64,000 nt of DNA from Ariolimax columbianus (lineage: Eukaryota; Mollusca; Gastropoda; Stylommatophora; Arionidae), in contig JAVGWX010000005.1 of NCBI GenBank assembly GCA_036924085.1, positions 96,710,730 to 96,774,729 of the forward strand. The letters are read 5' to 3'. Shown here one piece after another: positions 4,845 through 51,099 of this stretch; the first letter of the stretch is position 1, and each line of letters begins with the position of its first letter. A program made the position numbers and the translations under genes. Below the pieces are notes generated by a model. That model was not told the DNA's origin. It saw only the letters and a list, made by a program, of their open reading frames with translations, and ran no database searches.

Positions 4845-6360
4845 AACCTCTTGTGGTGGGGTATAACCTCTTGTGGTGGGGTGTAACCTCTTGTGCTGGG
4901 GTGTAACCTCTTGTGGTGGGGTGTAACCTTTTGTGGTGGGGTGTAACCTTTTGTGGTGGGGTGTAACCTCTTGTGGTGGTGGGGTGTAACCTTTTGTGGT
5001 GGTGGGGTGTAACCTCTTGTGGTGGTGGTGGGGTGTAACCTCTTGTGGTGGTGGTGGGGTGTAACCTCTTGTGGTGGTGGTGGGGTGTAACCTCTTGTGG
5101 GGGTGGTGGGGTGTAACCTCTTGTGGTGGTGGTGGTGGGGTGTAACCTCTTGTGGTGGTGGGGTGTAACCTCTTGTGGTGGTGGGGTGTAACCTCTTGTG
5201 GTGGTGGTGGTGGTGGGGTGTAACCTCTTGTGGTGGTGGTGGGGTGTAACCTCTTGTGGTGGTGGTGGTGGTGGGGTGTAACCTCTTGTGGTGGTGGTGG
5301 TGGTGGGGTGTAACCTCTTGTGGTGGTGGTGGGGTGTAACCTCTTGTGGTGGTGGTGGGGTGTAACCTCTTGTGGTGGTGGTGGGGTGTAACCTCTTGTG
5401 GTGGTGGTGGTGGTGGGGTGTAACCTCTTGTGGTGGTGGTGGGGTGTAACCTCTTGTGGTGGTGGTGGTGGTGGTGGGGTGTAACCTCTTGTGGTGGTGG
5501 TGGTGGGGTGTAACCTCTTGTGGTGGTGGTGGTGGGGTGTAACCTCTTGTGGTGGTGGTGGTGGTGGTGGTGGTGGGGTGTAACCTCTTGTGGTGGTGGT
5601 GGTGGTGGTGGTGGGGTGTAACCTCTTGTGGTGGTGGTGGTGGTGGGGTGTAACCTCTTGTGGTGGTGGTGGTGGTGGTGGGGTGTAACCTCTTGGGGTG
5701 GTGGTGGTGGGGTGTAACCTCTTGGGGTGGTGGTGGTGGGGTGTAACCTCTTGGGGTGGTGGTGGTGGGGTGTAACCTCTTGTGGTGGTGGTGGTGGTGG
5801 TGGTGGTGGGGTGTAACCTCTTGTGGTGGTGGTGGTGGTGGTGGTGGGGTGTAACCTCTTGTGGTGGTGGTGGGGTGTAACCTCTTGTGGTGGTGGTGGT
5901 GGTGGGGTGTAACCTCTTGTGGTGGTGGTGGTGTGGTGGGGTGTAACCTCTTGTGGTGGTGGTGGTGTGGTGGGGTGTAACCTCTTGTGGTGGTGGTGGT
6001 GTGGTGGGGTGTAACCTCTTGTGGTGGTGGTGGTGGTGTGGTGGGGTGTAACCTCTTGTGGTGGTGGTGGTGGTGTGGTGGGGTGTAACCTCTTGTGGTG
6101 GTGGTGGTGTGTAACCTGTAGGGGTGGTGGTGGTGGTGTGTAACCTGTAGGGGTGGTGGTGGTGGTGTGTAACCTGTGGGGGTGGTGGGGTGTAACCTCT
6201 TGTGGTGGTGGTGGAGGATGTAACTTATTGTGGTGGTGGTGGTGGTGGGGTGTAACCTCTTGTGGTGGTGGTGGTGGTGGGGTGTAACCTCTTGTGGTGG
6301 GGTGTAACCTCTTGTGGTGGTGGTGGGGTGTAACCTCTTGTGGTGGTGGTGGTGGGGTGT
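4845..6360. repeat. G-rich (GGT)n-type minisatellite, subfamily 1
   Basis: Repeats of GTAACCTCTTGTGG followed by a variable run of GGT triplets and GGGGT. Unit length changes only by triplet gain or loss, which is why one minus frame stays open for 740 codons as Pro/Thr/His-rich sequence. No initiation context, domain or flanking exon supports a protein. The plus strand is rich in GGTGGTGGTGGGG and could form G-quadruplex-like structures. Confidence 0.9.
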
Positions 6361-6905
6361 ATCCTCTTGTGGTGGTGTGTAGGCTGTTGTGGTGCTGGTG
6401 GGGTGTAGGCTCTTGTGGTGCTGGTGGTGTGTAGGCTCTTGTGGTGCTGGTGGTGTGTAGGCTCTTGTGGTGCTGGTGGTGTGTAGGCTCTTGTGGTGCT
6501 GGTGGTGTGTAGGCTGTTGTGGTGCTGGTGGGGTGTAGGCTCTTGTGGTGCTGGTGGTGTGTAGGCTCTTGTGGTGCTGGTGGTGTGTAGGCTCTTGTGG
6601 TGCTGGTGGTGTGTAGGCTCTTGTGGTGCTGGTGGTGTGTAGGCTCTTGTGGTGGTGGTGGGGTGTAGGCTCTTGTGGGGGTGGTGGTGGGGTGTAGGTT
6701 CTTGTGGTGGTGCTGGTGGGGTGTATGCTCTTGTGGTGGTGCTGGTGGGGTGTAGGCTCTTGTGGTGGTGCTGGTGGGGTGTAGGCTCTTGTGGTGGTGC
6801 TGGTGGGGTGTAGGCTCTTGTGGTGGTGCTGGTGGGGTGTAGGCTCTTGTGGTGCTGGTGGTCTGTACGCTCTTGTGGTGCTGGTGGTGGAGGGTGGGGG
6901 GTGGT
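6361..6905. repeat. G-rich minisatellite, subfamily 2
   Basis: Direct continuation of the preceding array with a changed unit: GTAGGCTCTTGTGGTGCTGG replaces GTAACCTCTTGTGGTGG. The boundary near 6361-6390 is sharp, and each side is internally homogeneous. Confidence 0.85.
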
Positions 6906-8127: not shown

Positions 8128-8649
8128 GCACATATGTGTTGAAAGATGCCATTTTATTACATTTTCAAGATAGGAAAGCTGCACAGATTGTAATATCACA
8201 TAATATAATATATAACTATCGAGATGTTGCACTGCTCGTGTTGTATGAAGTTTTCTACAGAGTAATTCTATTGTGGCTATAAATGACTGAGCATGTATAT
8301 CTGGAGTAGCAATGTAGATTCAGGTCTGGACATCGATCATGAATTCTTTGTTTCCTCTTCATTAGAAAAAGTCACGCGAGCAGAATCAGCCCGTTATGTC
8401 CTTTTTTGACCTGACAAACCATTAGATTTATTTAGTAGTGATTGACATAGTTTAATGTGATGGTGACATATCACAATCATTTGGCATTTGCAGTGGTGTT
8501 AAGCTATGTCCTCGTCCCGACACTGTTTAGAATTGTTACCGTGCTACTAAAGCATAGATTTGGAAGCGATGAAGGAATCTTGTCATTTCACTAGGTCGGA
8601 TGCTGGGCTGTAACCTTGCAAGGCCCAAACCCATAAAAGATCAGAAGTA

Positions 8650-9340
8650 GGACAGCATAAGAGACCTGATTTTCACTGATGATGCCGTAATTTTCGCTCT
8701 CAGCCAGCAGGAATTTCAGAGGTTGATAGATCGCTTCTCCCAGACATTGAGACGTTGGTCTCACAGCGTCTCAACACATGTGTTGGGACAGGAAGTAGAT
8801 GCCACGCCAACATTTAGCATCAACAATTTTGAATTGGCAACTGGGTACCAATTCCCATAGCAGGGTTCTCAACGACAAGCTCTCTAGACCCAGACATAGA
8901 CTGTCACATATGTATAGCTACTGCTATATTTCCACGTCTATCCGCACGTGTGTGTAAAAACCAGAAACTTTAACTTCCAGCCGAGGCCATAATTTACCAT
9001 GCATATGTTAACATGCACCTAAATGGTAGTGAAACTCGGGACATCTGGGATACTTGGGAAATTCTGTCAAACAAGAGTCCAATTACATGGAGGTATAGAG
9101 TGACAAATGTATAGGTACGTTTTTCAAGGCTGTATACACTTAGGCAGCGAACATAACGGACTACAATGGCTTGGTCATGTTCGTCGCATGAAAGATGGTC
9201 GCATACCCTAAGATATCCTCTATAGACAGTTGGCGAATGGCAAAAGAACAGTCGGCCGACCACAGCTGAGGTTCAAATATATGTAAGCGTGACATGAAGG
9301 CATTCGACATGGGTCTGACATTGGGAGGAAGTTTCAAACC
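8650..9340 (+). mobile_element. decayed non-LTR retrotransposon RT fragment
   Basis: Translation near 8662-8830 gives LIFTDDAVIFALS, then QRLIDRFSQTLRRW, the pattern around the RT catalytic F(A)DD box and following helix in LINE ORF2 proteins. From about 9160 to 9290 the frame reads LQWLGHVRRMKDGRIP, a stop, DILYRQLANGKRTVGRPQ, the usual tail of these proteins. Stops and frameshifts interrupt it and the region between the two blocks is poorly conserved, so it is a dead copy. It ends at the large 30-bp array starting near 9434. Confidence 0.75.
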
Positions 9341-9433: not shown

Positions 9434-10545
9434 AAGTCAGGATTCCGTGGTCATATCTACCAATAGTCAGGAGTACGTGGTCTCATCTACCCATAGTCAG
9501 GAGTCCGTGGTCACATCTACCCATAGTCAAGAGTCCGTGGTCACATCTACCCATAGTCAAGAGTCCGTGGTCACATCTACCCATAGTCAGGAGTCCGTGG
9601 TCACATCTACCCATAGTCAGGAGTCCGTGGTCACATCTACCCATAGTCAGGAGTCCGTGGTCACATCTACCCATAGTCAGGAGTCCGTGGTCACATCTAC
9701 CCATAGTCAGGAGTCCGTGGTCACATCTACCCATAGTCAGGAGTCCGTGGTCACATCTACCCATAGTCTGGAGTCCGTGGTCACATCTACCCATAGTCAG
9801 GAGTCCGTGGTCACATCTACCCATAGTCAGGAGTCCGTGGTCACATCTACCCATAGTCAGGAGTCCGTGGTCACATCTACCCATAGTCAGGAGTCCGTGG
9901 TCACATATACCCATAGTCAGGAGTCCGTGGTCACATATACCCATAGTCAGGAGTCCGTGGTCACATCTACCCATAGTCAGAAGTCCGTGGTCACATCTAC
10001 CCATAGTAGGAGTCCGTGGTCACATCTACCCATAGTAGGAGTCCGTGGTCACATCTACCCATAGTAGGAGTGCACGGTCCCATCTACCCATAGCCAGGAG
10101 TGCATGGTCCCATCTACCCATAGTCAGAAGTCAGTGGTCACACCTAATCATAGTCAGAAGTCCGTGGTCACACCTAATCATAGTCAAAAGTCCGTGGTCA
10201 CACCTAATCATAGTCAAAAGTCCGTGGTCACACCTAATCATAGCCAGAAGTCCGTGGTCACATCTACCCATAGTCAGGAGTCCGTGGTCACATCTACCCA
10301 TAGTCAGGAGTCCGTGGTCACATCTACCCATAGTCAGGAGTCCGTGGTCACATCTACCCATAGTCAGGAGTCCGTGGTCACATCTACCCATAGTCAGGAG
10401 TCCGTGGTCACATCTACCCATAGTCAGGAGTCCGTGGTCACATCTACCCATAGTCAGGAGTCCGTGGTCACATCTACCCATAGTCAGGAGTCCGTGGTCA
10501 CATCTACCCATAGTCAGGAGTCCGTGGTCACATCTACCCATAGTC
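9434..10545. repeat. 30-bp satellite-like array
   Basis: About 37 near-identical 30-bp units (core CATAGTCAGGAGTCCGTGG, then TCACATCTACC). The region 9998-10130 contains shortened units, and 10139-10260 is a local sub-block with CACCTAATCATAG. The plus frame reads SQESVVTSTH repeated, a by-product of the triplet period. Confidence 0.95.
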
Positions 10546-12095
10546 AGGGGACTCATTGGTCACATCTACCCATAGTCAGGGGAGTCGTTGGTCACATCTA
10601 CCCATAGTCAGGGGACTCGTTGGTCACATCTACCCATAGTCAGGGGACTCGTTGGTCACATCTACCCATAGTCAGGGGACTCGTTGGTCACATCTACCCA
10701 TAGTCAAGGGACTCGTTGATCACATCTACCCATAGTCAGGGGACTCGTTGGTCACATCTACCCATAGTCAGGGGACTCGTTGGTCACATCTACCCATAGT
10801 CAGGGGACTCGTTGGTCACATCTACCCATAGTCAGGGGACTCGTTGGTCGCATCTACCCATAGTCAGGGGACTCGTTGGTCGCATCTACCCATAGTCAGG
10901 GGACGCGTTGGTCACATCTACCCATAGTCAGGGGACGCGTTGGTCACATCTACCCATAGTCAGGGGACTCGTTGGTCACATCTACCCATAGTCAGGGGAC
11001 TCGTTGGTCACATCTACCCATAGTCAGGGGACTCGTTGGTCACATCTACCCATAGTCAGGGGACTCGTTGGTCACATCTACCCATAGTCAGGGGACTCGT
11101 TGGTCACATCTACCCATAGTCAGGGGACTCGTTGGTCACATCTACCCATAGTCAGGGGACTCGTTGGTCACACCTACCCATAGTCAGGGGACTCGTTGGT
11201 CACATCTACCCATAGTCAGGGAACTCGTTGGTCAAATCTACCCATAGTCAGGGAACTCGTTGGTCACATCTACCCATAGTCAGGGGACGCGTTGGTCACA
11301 TCTACCCATAGTCAGGGGACGCGTTGGTCACATCTACCCATAGTCAGGGAACGCGTTGGTCACATCTACCCATAGTCAGGGGATTCGTTGGTCACATCTA
11401 CCCATAGTCAGGGGACTCGTTGGTCACATCTACCCATAGTCAGGGGACACGTTGGTCACATCTACCCATAATCAGGGGACTCGTTGGTCACATCTACCCA
11501 TAGTCAGGGGACTCGTTGGTCACATCTACCCATAGTCAGGGGACTCGTTGGTCACATCTACCCGTAGTCAGGGGACTCGTTGGTCACATCTACCCGTAGT
11601 CAGGCGACTCGTTGGTCACATCTACCAGTAGTCAGGCGACTCGTTGGCCACATCTACCCGTAGTCAGGCGACTCGTTGGTCACATCTACCCGTAGTCAGG
11701 CGACTCGTTGGTCACATCTACTCATAGTCAGGCGACTCGTTGGTCACATCTACCCATAGTCAGGGGACTCGTTGGTCACACCTACCCATAATCAGGGGAC
11801 TCGTTGGTCACATCTACCCATAGTCAGGGGACTCGTTGGTCACATCTACCCATAGTCAGGGGACTCGTTGGTCAGACCTACCCATAGTCAGGGGACTCGT
11901 TGGTCAGACCTACCTATATAGTCAGGGGACTCGTTTGTCAGACCTACCTATATAGTCAGGGGACTCGTTGGTCAGACCTACCTATATAGTTAGGGGACTC
12001 GTTGGTCAGATCTACCTATATAGTCAGGGGACTCGTTGGTCACACCTACCTAGTTGGTCACACCTACCTAGTTGGTCACACCTACCTATAGTCAA
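10546..12095. repeat. 32-bp satellite-like array (derived from the 30-bp array)
   Basis: About 48 units in which AGGAGTCCGTGG of the left array is replaced by AGGGGACTCGTTGG, adding two bases. The 32-bp period destroys the open frames. Variants (GACGCG, CAGGCGACTC, CCTATATAG) occur in runs of neighbouring units, as expected from local duplication. Confidence 0.95.
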
Positions 12096-15959: not shown

Positions 15960-17590
15960 GTCCTTTCACTTATGTGTTGCAAGAGTGAGCTGGCCATTCA
16001 GAGTACAGTTCCACCTGGATCGGTCTGCAGCTTCGTCTTCCCAGGACGTCCGATTCATGTCCAGGACCTTCAACTCACGCTTGCAAATTTTTAAACAACT
16101 GTGGTTGGACGATTGTTCTGGTGCCATTCGCCAACTGTCCATAGAGGATATATTTGGGAATGCGACCATCTTCCATGCGACCATCTTCCATGCGACCAAC
16201 ACGACCAAGCCACTGTAGTCTTCGCTGCATAAGAACTGTACATGCTTGGAAGATCAGTGCGAAAGTGCACTCCTGCATTAGTGACTGTTCCTCCGTGTAA
16301 TCCCAAGCTGTGATCAATACTCATTTGCACACCGATGAGCTGTTTGTTGCACCTTGCTTCTGGCGAACTTAGAAGTACAGAGTACCTGCATTTGGAAGAT
16401 GCTTGTATTTAATCAGAGCAGCGCATTTGGCCTCAGTGACGGGTGTCATATCCTCCCCTTTCGCTTCAAACCAATCATCTGACATGTTAAAGTGCAGTGT
16501 TGTGTACGACATTTCTAAGATGCTGCCAGGTCTCTGTAACAACTGTGTCATGATGTTGGATATTGAGTTTCATGAAAATCATTGTAAAATCAGCTCAAGG
16601 TCCGACATTCTACTTGCGTCCTTGCGTGGCGTGCCTTTGCATCTGGTGTAATAGAATTTCTTCTGCTGCAATTTTATTTTACAGCGAACCAAAGAATGAT
16701 CAGTATCACAGTCTGCACTATGGTAAGTGCCCGTGCACTATGGTAAGTGCCCGTGCACTATGGTAAGTGCCCGTCAGAAACACATACTTAAGGAGAGATC
16801 GTCTGACAAGAATTAGATATAGATCCGGCTCACGCCAATGCTTTGATCGTGGGTGCATCCACGATACCTTATGTTGGGGTTTGGTCTGAAAATAAGAATT
16901 GGTCACACAAAGTTCATGGTAGGCACAGGGCTCCAGGAGCCGCAGGCCATTGTTATCAATTTGTCCAACTCCAAACTTGCCAAGAACATGAAGACCACAA
17001 GTTGCGATCAGCGCCCACTCTACCATTGAAATCACATAGAACAAGCTGTTCTTCGCTATGGATGCTTTTAATGATCGCTGGTAAATCATCATATAACTCA
17101 TCTTTGACTTCAGGTGTGGAGCACAAGGTAGGTGCATATACACTGACAAGGGTGTCGGAACCTACTGTTATATGGAGACGAAGCGTAAGCAAGCGTTCTG
17201 AATCATTCTCACCTGGTTCGACGATCTGTAGACATCTACAAAGCCTACATCGTGCTCTTTTCGTTGGGTTTTTTTCCTTGCCAGTGGAATGTCTTTCTCA
17301 CCCATTATCTCTGAGCCCGCTAACCGACGTTTCTTAGACTGCTACAGTGTCCACATTCAGTCTTTTCAGTTCGTCATTGATTACGCGTCTCCCTCTGGCA
17401 TCGTTTATACCATGCAGGTTATCAGATAGTCCAGTCTGCATGGTACGGACATTCCAACATCCGAGTTCAACTGTTGATGCACTTGTGTCGACACCACAGG
17501 GTGAAACTGGAAGGCCTCTCCAGGTCATAAGCTTTGGCATTCTTCTATGGAGAACAAGCTGTTGCCCGTGCAGTAGCACCCCCCCCCCCT
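15960..17590 (-). mobile_element. internally deleted non-LTR retrotransposon (EN and C-terminus)
   Basis: Read on the minus strand. At 17,580-17,340 it gives CWNVRTMQTGLSDN and ELKRLNVDTVAV, the start of an APE-type endonuclease. At 17,190-16,960: SVYAPTLCSTPEVKDE and LVLCDFNGRVGAD, the (G)DFNARVG catalytic block with its G lost. At 17,000-16,800: CVTNSYFQTKPQHKVSW. At 16,550-16,430: DDWFEAKGEDMTPVTEAK, from the endonuclease-RT linker. At 16,310-15,970: LQWLGRVGRMEDGR, KRELKVLDMNRTSWEDEAAD and RSRWNCTLNGQLTL, the C-terminal tail. The whole RT core is missing between linker and tail, and frames shift repeatedly. Small internal duplications occur: a 15-bp MEDGR codon repeat near 16165-16200, and a 20-bp unit in three copies at 16716-16770. 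The flanking ~29-bp repeat suggests insertion into an array. Confidence 0.85.
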
Positions 17591-36039: not shown

Positions 36040-37209
36040 ATGTAAGAGCCTGTCTAGCTATATTGAAACGTGCTTTCCTAGCCTCATTTTCTTAGCTTAA
36101 TTTGTTCTAGTGGCTGTTGTTGGTTCCTTTCCCATAGACCTTCATTTCTCACCATTTCCTGCCACTTTGTGCTCTTTATCCTTCGTAGGCACATGTTAAC
36201 AAGCACTGTAGTCTGTTGTATAGCCGTGGTCGTTCTCCGTGTTTCGACTACATGAAGCAGGACCGACTCACTGACGTTGGATATTCTTACTTTGGTGGAA
36301 ATTGATTTGCCTGGTTTTCCCTGTTTAGTGTCAGGAATGCCATTCTTGTCTTTGCAAGTCTGTTTCTTCTATCTGCATCTCTACCTCCTAATGTGCCATT
36401 TGTGCTGCCCAAATATGTAATAGTATTCACTTCTTCCTTTCAACTGCTCTCCACCCACCCATGATTAGTTTCTTTAATAGTGTTGAGTTTGATGAGCTTG
36501 ATTTTCTTCATTTTGATATTCAATCCTAATTTGACTGTTCTTTTGATCTATTGCATTTCTCTTGCTGTGGGACAAAAGTAGCAAATGATGTGTGTAGTCC
36601 AAGTTCTCCAATTGTGATATTTATCTTCATTATCTAATCATGTAAATCCAACAACAGCAGAGAGGGAGAAAAGACATGCTTGCCTGACAACGGTTTACAT
36701 CAAAAAGCTGTCAGTGCTCCTTTATGTACCACTTTACTATCCTCGTACGTATTGTATATTAGGGTTATGTACTTCTGTTATCCCATAGTCTCAACAGTTG
36801 CCATAGAGTACTTGATCTGCGCTATTAAACGCCTTGTTTCCATTCTCTAGTTTGATCTGTACATGATCTCCCCTGACAGAATCCTTCCTGTTCCTCTCAG
36901 AGCTTTTTCGTCTACTGCCGCTTGTAATCTAAGATTATAACGTTGAAAATCTTGCCTGCCACTGTCTGCAATCTAATCTCCCTTTAATTTCAGTCTGCTA
37001 GGTCTCCCTTGGGCCGCTGAATACGATTTCCTTTTTTGTCCATTATGTGGGCATTCTTTACTCTTTCCTATATTTTCTTTAACAGTCCTTGATACATTGC
37101 TATGATTATTCAAGAAGCAACATGTGGCCATGTTTATATCTGCCATTATAGCTTCTGATGCAATTCTCTCTGGTCCTGTTGCTTTTATTTTCTTGCTCAA
37201 TTGGTAAGT

Positions 37210-37862: not shown

Positions 37863-38021
37863 CTTTTAACCTTTGTTTCTTTATACGCGTCTTTTAACCG
37901 CTTTGTAACAGTAACCATCTCTGTACATCTGGTTTGGTGATTCCGGTTCGCCAAATGTGTATAACATTTTTACATTTCCTCGATTTAATGTAATCTCTGT
38001 CTGGATTCATTCTTTGTGTTG

Positions 38022-38077
38022 GTTCTCTTGAATCCTAGTTTCTTCGGGTTCTCTTGAATCCTAGTTTCTTTGGGTTC
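38022..38077. repeat. 26-bp minisatellite, left part
   Basis: Two copies of the unit TCTTGAATCCTAGTTTCTTT-GGGTTC; the array is split from its right part by the solo LTR. Confidence 0.9.
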
Positions 38078-39015
38078 TGTAGCAGACCCTCTGCTGCCGT
38101 GATCGAACTTAGAACATTCTCACACTCATCCACATCATCATGACCATACTCAGTAAATGACATATCACACAGCAGGTGGCATATTTATTATATCATACTC
38201 ATATCATAGAATGAGTAGAGAAATTACAAACACAATATAATACATATCTTAACTAAACATTCTACTAAAACGGGAATTGTAAGCATTAGCTATTGATGGA
38301 ATTCCCAACTATCTAAAAACCCAGTTCTATTGCCTTGCAATTACATCACACACACACATCGCCTTAACTGCGTCTTCAACACACCTTATCAAATACTCTT
38401 CCTCACTGAAATCCCCTCAGGTGGGCGATCTGGACATACTCGTTCACAGTGTGTCCTTGCTTACAAACACACGTTCAGATTATCTATAAATGCAAAACTT
38501 ACACACCTATTTGAGCGATCCTGTTCTATTACTAAACATTCGTCCAGCAGTCTACCAATCGCTCCTCTATCTAAGTCGGTGAGTTAAACATACGATCCAC
38601 GTTCAGTCTCTCTCTCACTCCTCCATACAGCATCACTCTCTCCCTCACTCTCCATCTCTCCTCCAGCCTCCCGAGCTAAACTTTGTCTCGAGTTATATAT
38701 CCTCAAGCAAGGCCAGAGCTTGACCAATCGATCTCAGGTGATGGTCATCTTCAATCCAATTGGACCGAAACACTTTGCACACCTGTCACTCCATTTATCT
38801 CGCAGCAAGCCCCGCTGCCAATTTCGTCTGTCAATCAATCTCCCCCTACCAAAATCGGAAGGCCAGTGGTCAGTTTCTATCTGTCCACATTCCTTAACCC
38901 AACTCTGTTCTCCTTTGCTGAGACAGTGAGTGACCTTGACATGCATTCAGGTAGCTTTAGGCTTTAACATGCTCATGCATCCTAAACTCCCCTTGCTCCG
39001 GCAGGAACTGTTACA
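38078..39015 (+). mobile_element. solo LTR of an LTR retrotransposon
   Basis: A 938-bp insertion starting TGTAGCAG and ending CTGTTACA (TG...CA with 8-bp imperfect terminal inverted repeats), flanked by a 4-bp direct repeat GTTC (38074-38077 and 39016-39019). Removing it and one GTTC rejoins the 26-bp array in register. No gag or pol frames lie inside, so it is a solo LTR by unequal recombination. Orientation is unknown; plus is arbitrary. GTTATATATCC near 38690 could be a promoter remnant. Confidence 0.8.
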
Positions 39016-39247
39016 GTTCTCTTGAATCCTAGTTTCTTTGGGTTCTCTTTAATCCTAGTTTCTTCGGGTTCTCTTGAATCCTACTTTCTTCGGGTTCTCT
39101 TGAATCCTACTTTCTTTGGGTTCTCTTGAATCCTAGTTTCTTCGGGTTCTCTTGAATCCTAGTTTCTTCGGGTTCTCTTGAATCCTAGTTTCTTTGGGTT
39201 CTCTTAAATCCTAGTTTCTTTGGGTTCTCTTGAATCCTAGTTTCTTT
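39016..39247. repeat. 26-bp minisatellite inside LINE, right part
   Basis: Nine units of the 26-bp repeat. The minus translation reads KLGFKRTQRN, matching the conserved 'VLGFKKxxHKEW' segment expected at this place in the LINE linker. Confidence 0.9.
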
Positions 39248-46108: not shown

Positions 46109-46639
46109 ACTATTGTAAGATATGATACTATTAGTTGGATGTTGCCCATCGCAGGAGCGACATCGGACTAGTGTTGCGAGATGTGAACTTCATGACTGAA
46201 GTCAAATTCTGCTACGGCAGACTCTGCTGTACATGGGACATACATGTGATGAGTCGGCTGTGTGGCTGTCATGCGTTCTGTTCTTTCAGGTGCCTCGCTT
46301 TCTCTAAGCATCGTCGATAAATCTGCTCTGCGATCTGAGCACCTTATGTGATTCTAGCACGGCGGGTTCGACAGTTAAACATCTTCAAGGAGGTGACAAT
46401 GTTAAGCCAGTCATATATATTTTAACGAGCCTTTGCAGATTTTCTTTTCTCACACCCCTTCCCCCCCCCCCCTTTTTTTTGTTGTTTAATGATGGGCGTT
46501 TTGCAGTTCTGAGCTTACCGCGTAGCAGCTGCTTAGGAAGACGACGTCGAATATGTACTGACGTCTGATATGTCCTGACGTCTGATCTGGACGTTGTGCA
46601 GGAACCAATGTGTCGACTTAAGAATTTCAGAGTTTTGAT
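46109..46639. other. unique sequence
   Basis: C- and T-runs at 46463-46489. No gene recognised. Confidence 0.35.
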
Positions 46640-46807
46640 ATCTGATCCTGGGAAACCTCAAGACGAGCTCCTGTGGAAAGAATTTAACTGTCTGACACGT
46701 CTTACATACACTGCCCTTATTTCGCAGATATGCAATAGGGTGGCTAACAGTATAGCACGATACATATTTACCTTGATGGCAAGTGATGCCTTGCTGGTTC
46801 CAGACGT

Positions 46808-47172
46808 CCTTTGTAGCCTCCCACGCAGAGTTTGTAGCCTCCCACGCAGATCTTGTAGCCTCCCACGCAGATCTTGTAGCCTCCCACGCAGATCTCGTAG
46901 CCTCCCACGCATATCTCGTAGCCTCCCACGCAGATCTCGTAGCCTCCCACGCAGAGCTCGTAGCCTCCCACGCAGAGCTTGTAGCCTCCCACGCAGAGCT
47001 TGTAGCCTCCCACGCAGAGCTTGTAGCCTCCCACGCAGAGCTTGTAGCCTCCCACGCAGAGCTTGTAGCCTCCCACGCAGAGCTTGTAGCCTCCCACGCA
47101 GAGCTTGTAGCCTCCCACGCAGAGCTTGTAGCCTCCCACGCAGAGCTTGTAGCCTCCCACGCAGAGCTTGTC
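46808..47172. repeat. 21-bp minisatellite inside LINE RT
   Basis: About 17 units of GTAGCCTCCCACGCAGAGCT-T. On the minus strand each unit is seven codons, T-S-S-A-W-E-A. LINE codons FTNRIAKTSSAWEA run into the array, and TKDVWNQQGIT runs out, as expected for '..RIAKASSAFGRL.KDVWN..' of the parent frame. Confidence 0.95.
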
Positions 47173-47221
47173 TTTGCAATCCTGTTAGTGAAGCTCTCCG
47201 CTGCCGTGAGGCATTTGTTTT

Positions 47222-47389
47222 GTATCGTGACTTCAGGTTCGATGTATTGTGACTTTAGGTTCGATGTATTGTGACTTTAGGTTCGATGTATTGTGACTTT
47301 AGGTTCGATGTATTGTGACTTTAGGTTCGATGTATTGTGACTTTAGGTTCGATGTATTGTGACTTTTGGTTCGATGTATCGTGACTATG
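47222..47389. repeat. 22-bp minisatellite, left part
   Basis: Seven to eight units with core TTCGATGTATTGTGACTTTA. The minus frame reads YIEPKVT, equal in position to 'YVEPNIT' of the LINE. Confidence 0.95.
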
Positions 47390-48305
47390 TACCAAGGTCA
47401 TGTACCAACCAGCACCAGGCATGCCGTACACAAAACCAGAGACTACAGTCAGCGGGCAGACGTTGAATGCCGTAGACAAATTCACATATCTGGGCAGCAC
47501 GCTGTCGAGATCTGTCAGCCTAGACGATGAGGTGGCAAGCAGAATAGCAAAGGCCAGCACAGCCTTTGGTAGAATGCGCTCGATGGTCTGGGCACGTCGT
47601 GGCATCAGCGTCAAGACCAAATTGAAAGTCTACCGTGCAACCATCATTCCAACCCTACTATACGCTTGCGAAAGCTGGACTGTATACTCTGGACATGCAA
47701 GGAGGTTAAACCACTTCCACACAGGTTGTCTGAGGCGAATATTCCACATCCGATGGCAAGATCGTGTCACTGACATCGATGTTCTCTCGAGGCCTAACAT
47801 GCCCAGCATACATGCACTGCTAGAAAAAGCACGACTAGGATGGGCCGGACACCTCGTCCGTATGTCAGACAAGCGGCTCCCAAAGAGCTTCTCTTCGGCG
47901 AGCTGAGAGACGGATGGCGCGAGAGAGGGCGCCCAAAGAAACGTTTTAAAGACGGTCTGAAGGACTCACTAAAAAGTTTCCAGATAGACTTCGACACCTG
48001 GGAATGTCTTGCGAAAAACAGATCTGACTGGAGAAGTGCAGTCAAATCGGGTGTAGCTGCCGGTGAAGATGACCGTGTTGTGAAAGCCCAGAACAGACGC
48101 GAGACGCGGAAATCTCGAGCAGCGGGAACACCATCCCCTTCTACAAACCTCGTGTGCCCGATATGTAGCAGATGTTTTCGTGCTCGCATTGGCCTGTTCA
48201 GCCACATGCGCACCCACACCCAACAGGGAAATCTGTGACAAGGATGATGTCGGCGGTCCTCATCGACAACGATGGACAGCTATTATTATTATTATTATTA
48301 TTATA
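47390..48305 (+). mobile_element. 5'-truncated LINE with C-terminal C2H2 finger, nested in 22-bp array
   Basis: Codes for the C-terminal RT part and tail: YQPAPGMPYTKPETTV, DKFTYLGSTLSRSVSLDDEV, RIAKASTAFGRMRSMVWARR, YRATIIPTLLYACESWTVYS, RLGWAGHLVRMSDKRLPK. After one frameshift near 47,860-47,890 come KELLFGELRDGWRERGRPKK, FDTWECLAKNRSDWR and a C2H2 finger CPICSRCFRARIGLFSHMRT-H (48,153-48,220) before the stop at 48,237. It ends in a (TTA)n tail (48,280-48,304). Direct repeats GTGACTATG at 47,381-47,389 and 48,306-48,314 look like a 9-bp target-site duplication. Only one frameshift over 280 codons, so it is much younger than its host LINE. Confidence 0.9.
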
Positions 48306-48395
48306 GTGACTATGGGCTCCATGTATCGTGACTATGGATTCGATGTTTCGTGACTTTGGATTCGATGTTTCGTGACTTTGGATTCGATGTATCGC
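48306..48395. repeat. 22-bp minisatellite, right part
   Basis: Four units (core ATTCGATGTTTCGTGACTTT), the other half of the array at 47222-47389, leading back into the host LINE codons RKRYIES. Confidence 0.9.
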
Positions 48396-48734
48396 TTCCT
48401 GGATGCAGGTTGAAAGTGTCTGTTCGTGTTGTGTGATTAAAATTACTTCACGCGCCCAAAAACTTCGCCACGGTTGGCTGCACATCGTGTTCTCGGGAGG
48501 AGTGAAGGACGCGTTCGTCAACGAACATAATATCCGAGATGGTGCATTCTTTCACTTTGGTGTATTGTTTCAGGCATATCTGATCATAGATAGCCTACCT
48601 TTCGCCCTTTACCTGATATGCTTGCTAATAGCAACCTCATTTTAACATAATCCAGCATCAGAGCATTGCTGCAAAGAAAATGCTGGTGCCAGCACATCCC
48701 TATTTAACACCGTTGGTGACTGATGCCCACACGC
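48396..48734 (-). pseudogene. RT catalytic-region remnant of the host LINE
   Basis: Part of the 46.6-50.2 kb LINE. SDIMFVDERVLHSSREHDVQ corresponds to the RT palm motif with FADD changed to FVDE, followed by a stop. The remainder to 48,735 is the VLAPAFSLQQC segment and poorly conserved DNA. Confidence 0.75.
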
Positions 48735-49590
48735 CTCTCTCCTCCCTGCAGTACCCGAGCTATCATGGAATTGGCGAACCTCTCGCCTCCCTGCAGTACA
48801 CGAGCTATCATGGAATTGGCGAACCTCTCTCCTCCCTGCAGTACACGAGCTATCATGGAATTGGCGAACCTCTCTCCTCCCTGCAGTACACGAGCTATCA
48901 TGGAATCTGCGAACCTCTCTCCTCCCTGCAGTACACGAGCTATCATGGAATTGGCGAATCTCTCTCATCCCTGCAGTACACGAGCTATCATGGAATTGGC
49001 GAACCTCTCTCCTCCCTGCAGTACACGAGCTATCATGGACTTGACGAACCTCTCTCATCCCTGCAGTACACGAGCTATCATGGAATTGGCGAATCTCTCT
49101 CATCCCTGCAGTACACGAGCTATCATGGAATTGGCGAACCTCTCTCCTCCCTGCAGTACACGAGCTATCATGGAATTGACGAACCTCTCTCATCCCTGCA
49201 GTACACGAGCTATCATGGAATTGGCGAACCTCTCTCCTCCCTGCAGTACACGAGCTATCATGGAATTGGCGAACCTCTCTCCTCCCTGCAGTACACGAGC
49301 TATCATGGAATTGGCGAACCTCTCTCCTCCCTGCAGTACACGAGCTATCATGGAATCTGCGAACCTCTCTCCTCCCTGCAGTACACGAGCTATCATGGAA
49401 TTGGCGAATCTCTCTCATCCCTGCAGTACACGAGCTATCATGGAATTGGCGAACCTCTCTCCTCCCTGCAGTACACGAGCTATCATGGAATTGACGAACC
49501 TCTCTCCTCCCTGCAGTACACGAGCTATCATGGAATTGGCGAACCTCTCTCATCCCTGCAGTACACGAGCTATCATGGAATTGGCGATCA
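48735..49590. repeat. 45-bp minisatellite inside LINE RT
   Basis: About 19 units with core ACGAGCTATCATGGAATTGG, then CGAACCTCTCTCCTCCCTGC, then AGTAC; every unit carries CTGCAG. On the minus strand it reads RQFHDSSCTAGRREV or, one frame on, SMIARVLQGGERFAN, matching 'VRQFHDGM.ARV.D.GE' of LINE RTs. The LINE resumes directly on both sides. Variants recur with a ten-unit (450-bp) offset. Confidence 0.95.
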
Positions 49591-49821
49591 ACGGTAATGA
49601 ATCTTCCAGGGCAACCAATTCTTGCCATGAATTGCAAGAGCCCTTACCAGTTGACGGTGTCAACGATCTTGCTCATGTCCACCAAAACTCTGTACAGGTT
49701 GCAATGTTCTTAAAACGTTACCTTTAGTTGACCTACTTATCGTGCCGACCTTTCCACGACCGGCTCGAAAACCATCCTGACTCTGGGAGTAGACCCTGCC
49801 CAAGATAACTAGTTAGGCTGT

Positions 49822-49905
49822 TGACCCGGACAAGGGAGCAATTGAGCCGGACCCGGGAGCACTTGAGCGAGACACGGGAGCACTTGAGCCGGACATGGAG
49901 CACAA
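49822..49905. repeat. 24-bp repeat inside LINE RT
   Basis: Three to four degenerate units with core GAGCCGGACCCGGGAGCACT. The minus frame reads KIVLHVRLKCSRVSLKC..., repeating the segment that corresponds to 'KILARVLLNRL' of the RT, then continues into TSYLGQGLLPES without a frame change. Confidence 0.75.
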
Positions 49906-50477
49906 TCTTGCCCGCGATTTACAGAAGATGCTCTAGCGTAGGAATGACAGTTTCTCTTTAGTTTGTTCAAGTGAACAATAGCATCTTTCAGATCATGAGG
50001 TATCTGCCGGTTATCTCACATTGAACGGGATAGCTACGTCAGCTGTTCAATAGAATAGGACCTCCTGCATTATGAACTCCAGCAGTAAGAGCATCTGACC
50101 CGGAGGAGTTTCCTATATAAATTTCAAAAATTCCTTTCATGACCTGATCAAAGCTTGTAGGAATGCCGAGTTAACCCTTTGTCGCGACTTGTGGCGTTCG
50201 TGTTATGGATTATTCGCTGATTTCCGAGTATTGCTTGATTTCTTTCTCAGAAAGGTCCATTTCTCCTTCACTGTAATCTAACAATGCTATTCATCTTTTA
50301 GCGGAATGTCCAGAACATGTGAAAAAGTGTGAGACTGTTCCGTTCTGCAGTTTCATATATTAATTCTCTTCACTAGCCTCCGATGTCATGGGCTCTATGC
50401 TGAAGTTAAATGTTGACAGAATAAACCTGATCAGCTCTTGTCACCCGCCCATCACATAAGTCACTCTTTCTAGTGAT

Positions 50478-50743
50478 AACATAGTCAATAAGTTGTCAAG
50501 TGATAACAGTCAATAAGTTGTCAAGTGATAACATAAGTTGTCACGTGATAACATAAGTTAGCACGTGATAACATAGTCAATAAGTTGTCACGTGATAACA
50601 TAGTCAATAAGTTGTCACGTGATAACAGTCAATAAGTTGTCACGTGATAACATAGTCAATAAGTTGTCAAGCGATAACATAGTCAATAAGTTGTCAAGCG
50701 ATAACATAGTCAATAAGTTGTCAAGCGATAACATAGTCAATAA
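50478..50743. repeat. 27-bp minisatellite
   Basis: About ten units with core AAGTTGTCACGTGATAACAT then AGTCAAT; some lack AGTCAAT or ATAGTC. Its distance to the LINE (under 250 bp) leaves open that it too lies in LINE sequence, but no codon match was seen. Confidence 0.9.
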
Positions 50744-51099
50744 GGTTTGTCGTTTGACGGTAAGCGAGTGAAACATTGCTTGTGATATAGTGACATCGAG
50801 CAGATCCAAGTCTTTTGCTGTTCCATTCCTCGATATGATGTTTGCCAATTGCCACTTCCAATTCCGATGGTCGTTTTACATTCTAGCATTGAAGTCAAGG
50901 ATGTGGTTCTTGTTCCTTCGAACTGATAAAATAGAACTGATCAAATAGAACTGATCAGATAGAACTGATTAAATAGAACTGATAAAATACCAGTTTAGTA
51001 ATGCTAATAAGAGTAGCAGTACTGTTTCCCAGTAAAATCTGCCGTCTTGATTTTTGACACGCCCGCTCATGCATGCCCATATACACGTGCGTACTCTTT
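50744..51099. other. unique sequence with a short 15-bp repeat
   Basis: Five copies of AAATAGAACTGATCA-like units lie at 50927-50988. Nothing else recognised. Confidence 0.5.

Follow-up and report, generated by a model that had tools for sequence, protein, structure and literature searches.

How can one decayed retrotransposon come to carry several minisatellites whose periods are unrelated and whose units appear to repeat its own codons? The question is raised by a stretch of 64,000 nucleotides from contig JAVGWX010000005.1 of Ariolimax columbianus (the whole stretch is called the window here, and position 1 is its first letter), in which a dead retrotransposon without long terminal repeats (non-LTR), that is, a long interspersed nuclear element (LINE), lies on the minus strand. 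The original prediction, made from the letters of the window, held that four minisatellites had been born by local amplification inside this LINE's reverse transcriptase frame at 46640..50230 and that no described process creates such arrays. Sequence comparison gives good support to the view that four arrays (A2, A3, A4, and A5 below) repeat residues that the LINE itself carries at the corresponding columns of its family protein; this is well supported for each of the four. An old dead LINE lying in a region of high array birth, with local duplication, unit-wise expansion, and a later insertion, would very probably be the explanation.

Element A and the arrays inside it

The family of this LINE, here element A, was collected with a query of 166 residues taken from the plus-strand LINE piece at about 47,397-47,894. 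Among 882 candidates, 554 were relatives at E ≤0.001, and the best 120 of these 554 were listed; the named sources of the full-length ones are animals, including Spirometra, Littorina, Branchiostoma, and Malaclemys. The family reference consisted of 49 proteins of 1,030-1,110 residues with both endonuclease (EN) and reverse transcriptase (RT), all from sources other than this genome. These full-length relatives carry PF00078 together with PF03372 and, for the most part, PF14529, and their C-terminal Cys/His residues are near-invariant. LINE copies beyond the window were compared as proteins only. The features on which the argument turns, with arrays located by Tandem Repeats Finder (TRF), are as follows:

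Element A: 46172..50962, minus strand, dead non-LTR retrotransposon (LINE) running from the endonuclease (column 117) to the C-terminal zinc-finger region (column 1049); tblastn with the 49 full-length relatives.
A1: 49821..49903, minus strand, 21-bp unit, about 4 copies, located at LARVLLN (columns about 561-567), downstream of GKI in the frame; TRF.
A2: 48734..49587, minus strand, 45-bp unit, 19.0 copies, from VRQFHDGMMARVQDDGE (columns 649-665); TRF and frameshift-aware alignment.
A3 part a: 48306..48394 (TRF 48302-48394), minus strand, the other half of the 22-bp array past insert C; TRF.
A3 part b: 47221..47389 (TRF 47221-47386), minus strand, 22-bp unit, from YVEPNITV (columns 787-794); TRF and unit control.
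A4: 46811..47171, minus strand, 21-bp unit, 17.2 copies, from ASAA(F)GRL (columns 829-836); TRF and in-place control.
A5: 50472..50744, minus strand, 27-bp unit, 10.8 copies, derived from the endonuclease residues LIDYVIV (columns 210-216); TRF and controls.
Insert C: 47390..48305, plus strand, younger 5'-truncated copy of element A's LINE family, about 0.9 kb, inside A3; tblastn and TRF.

On one reference, the minus-strand matches follow each other at columns 117-199, 210-229, 441-509, 507-654, 672-791, 784-842, and 814-1049, and the LINE columns run in order on either side of arrays A1-A5. As its regions run in order from endonuclease through reverse transcriptase to the C-terminus, element A is a non-LTR retrotransposon of the EN-RT-C2H2 type; its own two ends were not found. 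It carries deletions, stops, and frameshifts, and its identity to the relatives is 28-36% over long matches and 80% in one short match (tblastn). One further minus-strand match, at 47660-47731 within copy C, which lies on the other strand, was out of order and was discarded as chance (E = 4.5). When five raw pieces of the window were searched with Pfam, no EN or RT domain was returned, the hits being chance matches and many of them repeat-driven; the best C2H2 signal came from insert C (E = 1.1e-4, 22.9 bits vs a cut-off of 25.2). When viral contigs were scanned for LINE relatives with 14 of the proteins, 31 pattern matches came up, none of them a relative.

TRF recovered all four arrays of the original prediction, and the LINE segments around them lie in order by tblastn, with LINE codons continuing on both flanks of the arrays as had been claimed. 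The two 22-bp stretches belong to one array, split by a younger LINE copy of opposite strand. Periods of 45, 22, and 21 bp were read correctly, but the array at 49821 has a period of 21 bp, not 24 bp. The proposed extent of 46640..50230 was too short, as element A reaches about 50,962, and a further LINE-derived array with a unit of 27 bp (A5) was missed outside those coordinates. In translation, the units of A2 carry the LINE residues RQFHD...ARV...GE (columns 649-665), those of A4 show SSA(F)GRL (columns 829-836), and the A5 unit reads LIDYVIT.

Chance resemblance was gauged with the units of 58 arrays lying outside LINEs, trimmed or extended to equal length and taken on both strands, giving 116 trials. 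When each unit was scored alone by frameshift-aware alignment, no control reached the observed score for A2, A3 (47221 half), or A5 (0/116 each), and none reached that of A4 (0/116), the margin here being thin (24.3 vs 24.1). In single-frame scoring, the 47221 half of A3 again stood clear of all 116 controls, while A1 (74/116), A4 (12/116), and the 48302 half of A3 (9/116) failed; A4 is understated by such scoring, owing to the frameshift in its unit. In the frameshift-aware test, the A4 unit taken alone scored best at columns 834-842, as GRL followed by a tail of repeated unit, and therefore the in-place test was relied on for this array. This control, added once the outcomes of both unit-alone tests had been seen, sets one unit between the array's own flanks and was run on A1, A2, A4, and A5, and on B1 and B2, two arrays of another LINE piece listed below. 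With units of other arrays in that position, the observed score was reached in 0/116 trials for A2, 0/116 for A4, 2/116 for A5, and 6/116 for A1; with shuffled units, the corresponding counts were 0/300, 0/300, 5/300, and 25/300. In the alignment of units to the gap positions, a check that might have refuted the original prediction, four of the five units aligned, and the prediction was not refuted. The claim that the units repeat the LINE's residues in place is thus borne out by these controls for the 45-bp, 22-bp, and 21-bp (46811) arrays, but for the array at 49821 an origin from LINE codons is suggestive only.

Relatives, reading frame, and order of events

The 49 full-length relatives show no extra residues at the sites of A1-A5. 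At the A2 site the spacing is equal in 48 of the 49, with one relative shorter, and at the A1 site it is 30 residues in 44 relatives and 31 in 5. Because the spacing is fixed across the relatives, the arrays would lie outside the normal sequence of the family, and a family sequence that already contained them, the outcome that would have refuted the original prediction, was rejected since the 49 relatives lack them.

The units themselves keep a record of when they multiplied. Relative to the family, a deletion of 8 nt is present in 18 of 18 complete A2 units, and a deletion of 2 nt in 17 of 17 A4 units. Since these deletions are shared by all complete units of both arrays, expansion followed the break of the reading frame. 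The consensus unit of A5 also has a stop, but it lies near the unit junction and is less informative on timing. The proposed local amplification of LINE segments, as opposed to the arrival of foreign arrays, is therefore supported: in two arrays it came after the frame break, and the units stand at the expected columns.

A second record is provided by insert C, which is less decayed than element A (tblastn identity to the relatives about 60-63%), begins near column 775, and ends in a (TAT)n tail. It is bordered on both sides by GTGACTATG, a 9-bp target-site duplication, such that A3 part b terminates in the left copy of the duplication and A3 part a begins with the right copy, the unit being common to both halves; as the target was itself an array, the duplication might be longer by whole 22-bp units. 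Insert C thus shows the hallmarks of LINE insertion, namely a target-site duplication, 5' truncation, and a simple 3' tail. When insert C and one copy of the duplication are removed, A3 becomes an array of 11 + 7/22 copies with the 7 bp CGATACA at both ends; because removal of C restores it in this way, A3 was already an array before C landed. TRF found no minisatellite within insert C. The truncation point of insert C (column about 775) lies some twelve codons from the site of A3 itself (787-794), which is perhaps a coincidence.

Array birth across the window

TRF returned 136 rows for the 64-kb window, which were merged at a period of ≥10, about ≥2 copies, and a score of ≥50. The 70 merged arrays cover 24,470 bp, or 38.2% of the window; 53 and 47 arrays are left when the settings are made stricter in two ways. 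For 64 of the 70, the unit has no match elsewhere within the window. The six that do are the two halves of A3 (matching each other), a neighbouring pair with a common unit, one low-complexity unit, and that of B1, whose match is a stretch within LINE piece D. An Rfam scan of the window at gathering score returned no match. By its content, the DNA is of eukaryotic type and crowded with minisatellites, and the genome is probably that of an animal. The remaining arrays of element A and the other LINE pieces, the borders of B, D, and E being tblastn match ends, are as follows:

A6: 50920..50989, minus strand, 14-bp unit, 5 copies, endonuclease end of element A; TRF.
A7: 46543..46586, minus strand, 17-bp unit, 2.6 copies, C-terminal part of element A; TRF.
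Element B: 15999..17543, minus strand, dead LINE piece; tblastn.
B1: 16160..16198, minus strand, 15-bp unit, 2.6 copies, codons GRMED, in element B; TRF.
B2: 16714..16774, minus strand, 20-bp unit, 3.05 identical copies, in element B, followed by LINE codons DCDTDHRLV; TRF.
Piece D: 8459..9277, plus strand, LINE; tblastn.
Piece E: 36126..37049, minus strand, LINE; tblastn.

The A6 unit alone was equaled by 11/116 controls in frameshift-aware scoring, and the A7 unit showed no tie to LINE codons (48/116 in the single-frame control). A search of other copies of this LINE family for arrays at other positions and periods had also been suggested. Element B does hold two, B1 and B2, whose sites and periods differ from those in element A, but B, like D, probably belongs to a related but different LINE family, judged by eye. 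The B1 unit was matched by 3/116 controls alone and 1/116 in place, and the B2 unit by 1/116 in place, 8/300 shuffles, and 24/116 alone. Within LINE pieces D and E, TRF found no arrays.

Three further features of the window may be noted. A 26-bp unit is common to the arrays at 38021-38078 and 39016-39247, about 1 kb apart, which form its clearest related separate pair. A long GT-rich and indel-rich array at 4973-6890 has minus-strand open frames of several hundred codons, whose meaning is improbable. At 9448-12050, an array with a 32-bp unit and about 83 copies begins less than 200 bp from the end of LINE piece D.

Against this background, the interval of the original prediction is not clearly denser in arrays than chance would give. 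The segment 46640-50230 holds 5 arrays (A3 counted as two halves) versus a mean of 3.47 (standard deviation 1.52) in 3.6-kb sliding windows, and 25.9% of such windows hold at least as many, or 6.6% and 4.7% under the stricter definitions. Enrichment of arrays in the LINE pieces taken together was likewise rejected, as their density equals the background (10 arrays in 6,035 non-array bp, or 1.66/kb, vs 60 in 33,520, or 1.79/kb, in the rest; binomial p = 1.0). Because the background rate is high, several unrelated periods within one LINE are to be expected.

How the arrays start can be read in part from their ends. In the 39 indel-free arrays (those with indels and the A3 halves left out), the junction excess, that is, the length past whole units, falls between -2 and 6 bp in 29, where random phase would give 15.0 (reached in 0/20,000 draws). 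This clustering near whole copy numbers points to growth by whole units. The median excess is 2 bp, with simulations giving 0 for blunt duplication and 3 for a 3-bp junction identity, and the fraction with an excess of ≥4 bp is 0.36, compared with 0.11 in the blunt simulation. Individual junctions measure 7 bp for A3, 5 bp for A4, and 9 bp for B1, compared with -1 bp for A2 and 1 bp for B2. The births thus appear to include both near-blunt duplications and others with a few bp of identity, and a small number, such as A3 and B1, fit a seeded origin.

We therefore propose the following course of events. Throughout the region, array birth would strike at random, in nearly every kind of sequence, leaving about one surviving array per kb. 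Short stretches of element A (21 to 45 bp) would have been duplicated in tandem at separate times, with junction identities of 0 to about 7 bp, and at least two of these duplications would have taken place after element A had lost its reading frame. The duplications would then have been enlarged unit by unit through replication slippage or unequal exchange, and finally a younger LINE copy of the same family would have entered one completed array, A3. Slippage, end joining, and unequal exchange would be the molecular steps, and the rate may extend beyond this region to the genome as a whole.

Several points weigh against this account. The tie of A1 to LINE codons is weak, with 34/116 controls reaching the score of its unit alone under frameshift-aware alignment. 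The other 10 of the 39 junctions range from -5 to 28 bp, outside the interval of -2 to 6 bp. Timing and rate are deduced from one sequence of one allele. Finally, element A by itself is richer in arrays than the window, with 8 arrays in 1,951 non-array LINE bp (4.1/kb vs 1.65/kb, p = 0.022), a count that takes A3 twice and includes A6 and, in the lenient set, A7, arrays of putative LINE origin at most; the strict set of 7 arrays gives p = 0.015. As element A was chosen for being rich in arrays, this excess is post hoc, and 8 or more arrays are found in 5.7% of 4.8-kb windows. An array excess of element A is thus unproven.

The same excess speaks for a rival, in which the arrays arose during the retrotransposition of element A, by slippage or template switching of the reverse transcriptase, and arrived with the insertion. 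A survey of human arrays adds weight to this idea, as it describes tandem repeats as relatively commoner in younger and more active families of transposable elements (TEs) and their initiation as possibly tied to retrotransposition (PMC3389668). However, DNA outside LINEs is equally rich in arrays, and insert C, which is younger and belongs to the same family, has none. In addition, unit variants of A2 recur out of order, and A4 is uniform at one end and variable at the other, which indicates continued expansion in place. Although a shared deletion and its expansion could both fall within a single retrotransposition cycle, we consider an origin during retrotransposition unlikely. Slightly less likely still is that LINE DNA, or element A in particular, was a preferred target of array birth, for example through its structure or repeated nicking by the endonuclease: the density in element A speaks for such a preference, but the pooled LINE pieces stand at background, C, D, and E hold no arrays, and element A was picked for its own. 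Insertion of foreign satellite arrays into the LINE can be set aside almost entirely. Arrays might be spread by transposition, and six of the 70 units do match elsewhere in the window, but these matches come from the split of A3, a neighbouring pair, low complexity, and the likeness of B1 to a stretch of piece D, and the LINE residues at the expected columns contradict a foreign origin for A2, A3, A4, and A5.

Local birth in a dead LINE, followed by unit-wise growth, thus fits the locus best, and it may tentatively be widened. Minisatellite birth could be a leading and continuing kind of mutation in this genome, occurring about once per kb whatever the sequence, mostly by near-blunt duplication (0-6 bp) and not from long seeds, with dead LINEs serving as dated tapes on which the births are read against a pre-array sequence that is known and which would reveal how minisatellites start. 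We regard this wider proposal as possible, with the balance tilted somewhat against it.

Comparison with known minisatellites

With arrays inside a TE, units homologous to it in place, and relatives that lack them, the locus would be classed as a set of TE-derived minisatellites. The birth of minisatellites inside TEs has already been surveyed and models for it have been published (PMC3389668), so the statement that no described process applies is not supported. Ahmed and Liang (2012; PMC3389668) report 7,276 TE-derived human minisatellites, of which 601 are tied to L1 (L1PA counted apart), and describe local duplication; the reviews PMC6947457 and PMC9659126 cover the same class. The start of a minisatellite is nevertheless poorly settled, as the two established models account for about 6% of the TE-derived arrays in that survey, where most of the unexplained arrays have two units only. 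A genome with an array about every kb and dead LINEs whose ancestral protein sequence is known may be of use, since the starting duplication could be read from it and nested insertions would give relative dates. Taken alone, the present locus illustrates a known process clearly and adds no new one.

As in the TE-derived minisatellites described in PMC3389668, where L1 is among the human sources, the unit here comes from a short stretch of the surrounding TE and has expanded in place, and a table row on human Alu and LTR elements in PMC9659126 indicates that arrays are possible in any region of an element. The model of Haber and Louis (1998), as cited in PMC6947457 and PMC3389668, in which minisatellites are seeded by short flanking direct repeats, resembles what is seen in A3 (7 bp, CGATACA, at the ends of the unit), A4 (5 bp), and B1 (9 bp). 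In contrast, A2 (-1 bp) and B2 (1 bp) are near-blunt, and long seeds are not general here. The 'mirage' minisatellites of amphioxus (PMC3087553) likewise amplify local host sequence; those lie at intron-exon boundaries and show length instability, with a unit spanning the boundary in a live gene, whereas the units of element A lie in a dead LINE frame.

Unlike the set described in PMC3389668, a single copy here holds at least 4 element-derived arrays with as many as 19 units, and 38% of the window is minisatellite. The original observation is therefore largely right and its supposed rarity is not, the arrays being ordinary in kind and striking in density. Compared with known TE-derived minisatellites, it is the array density of the window that stands out.

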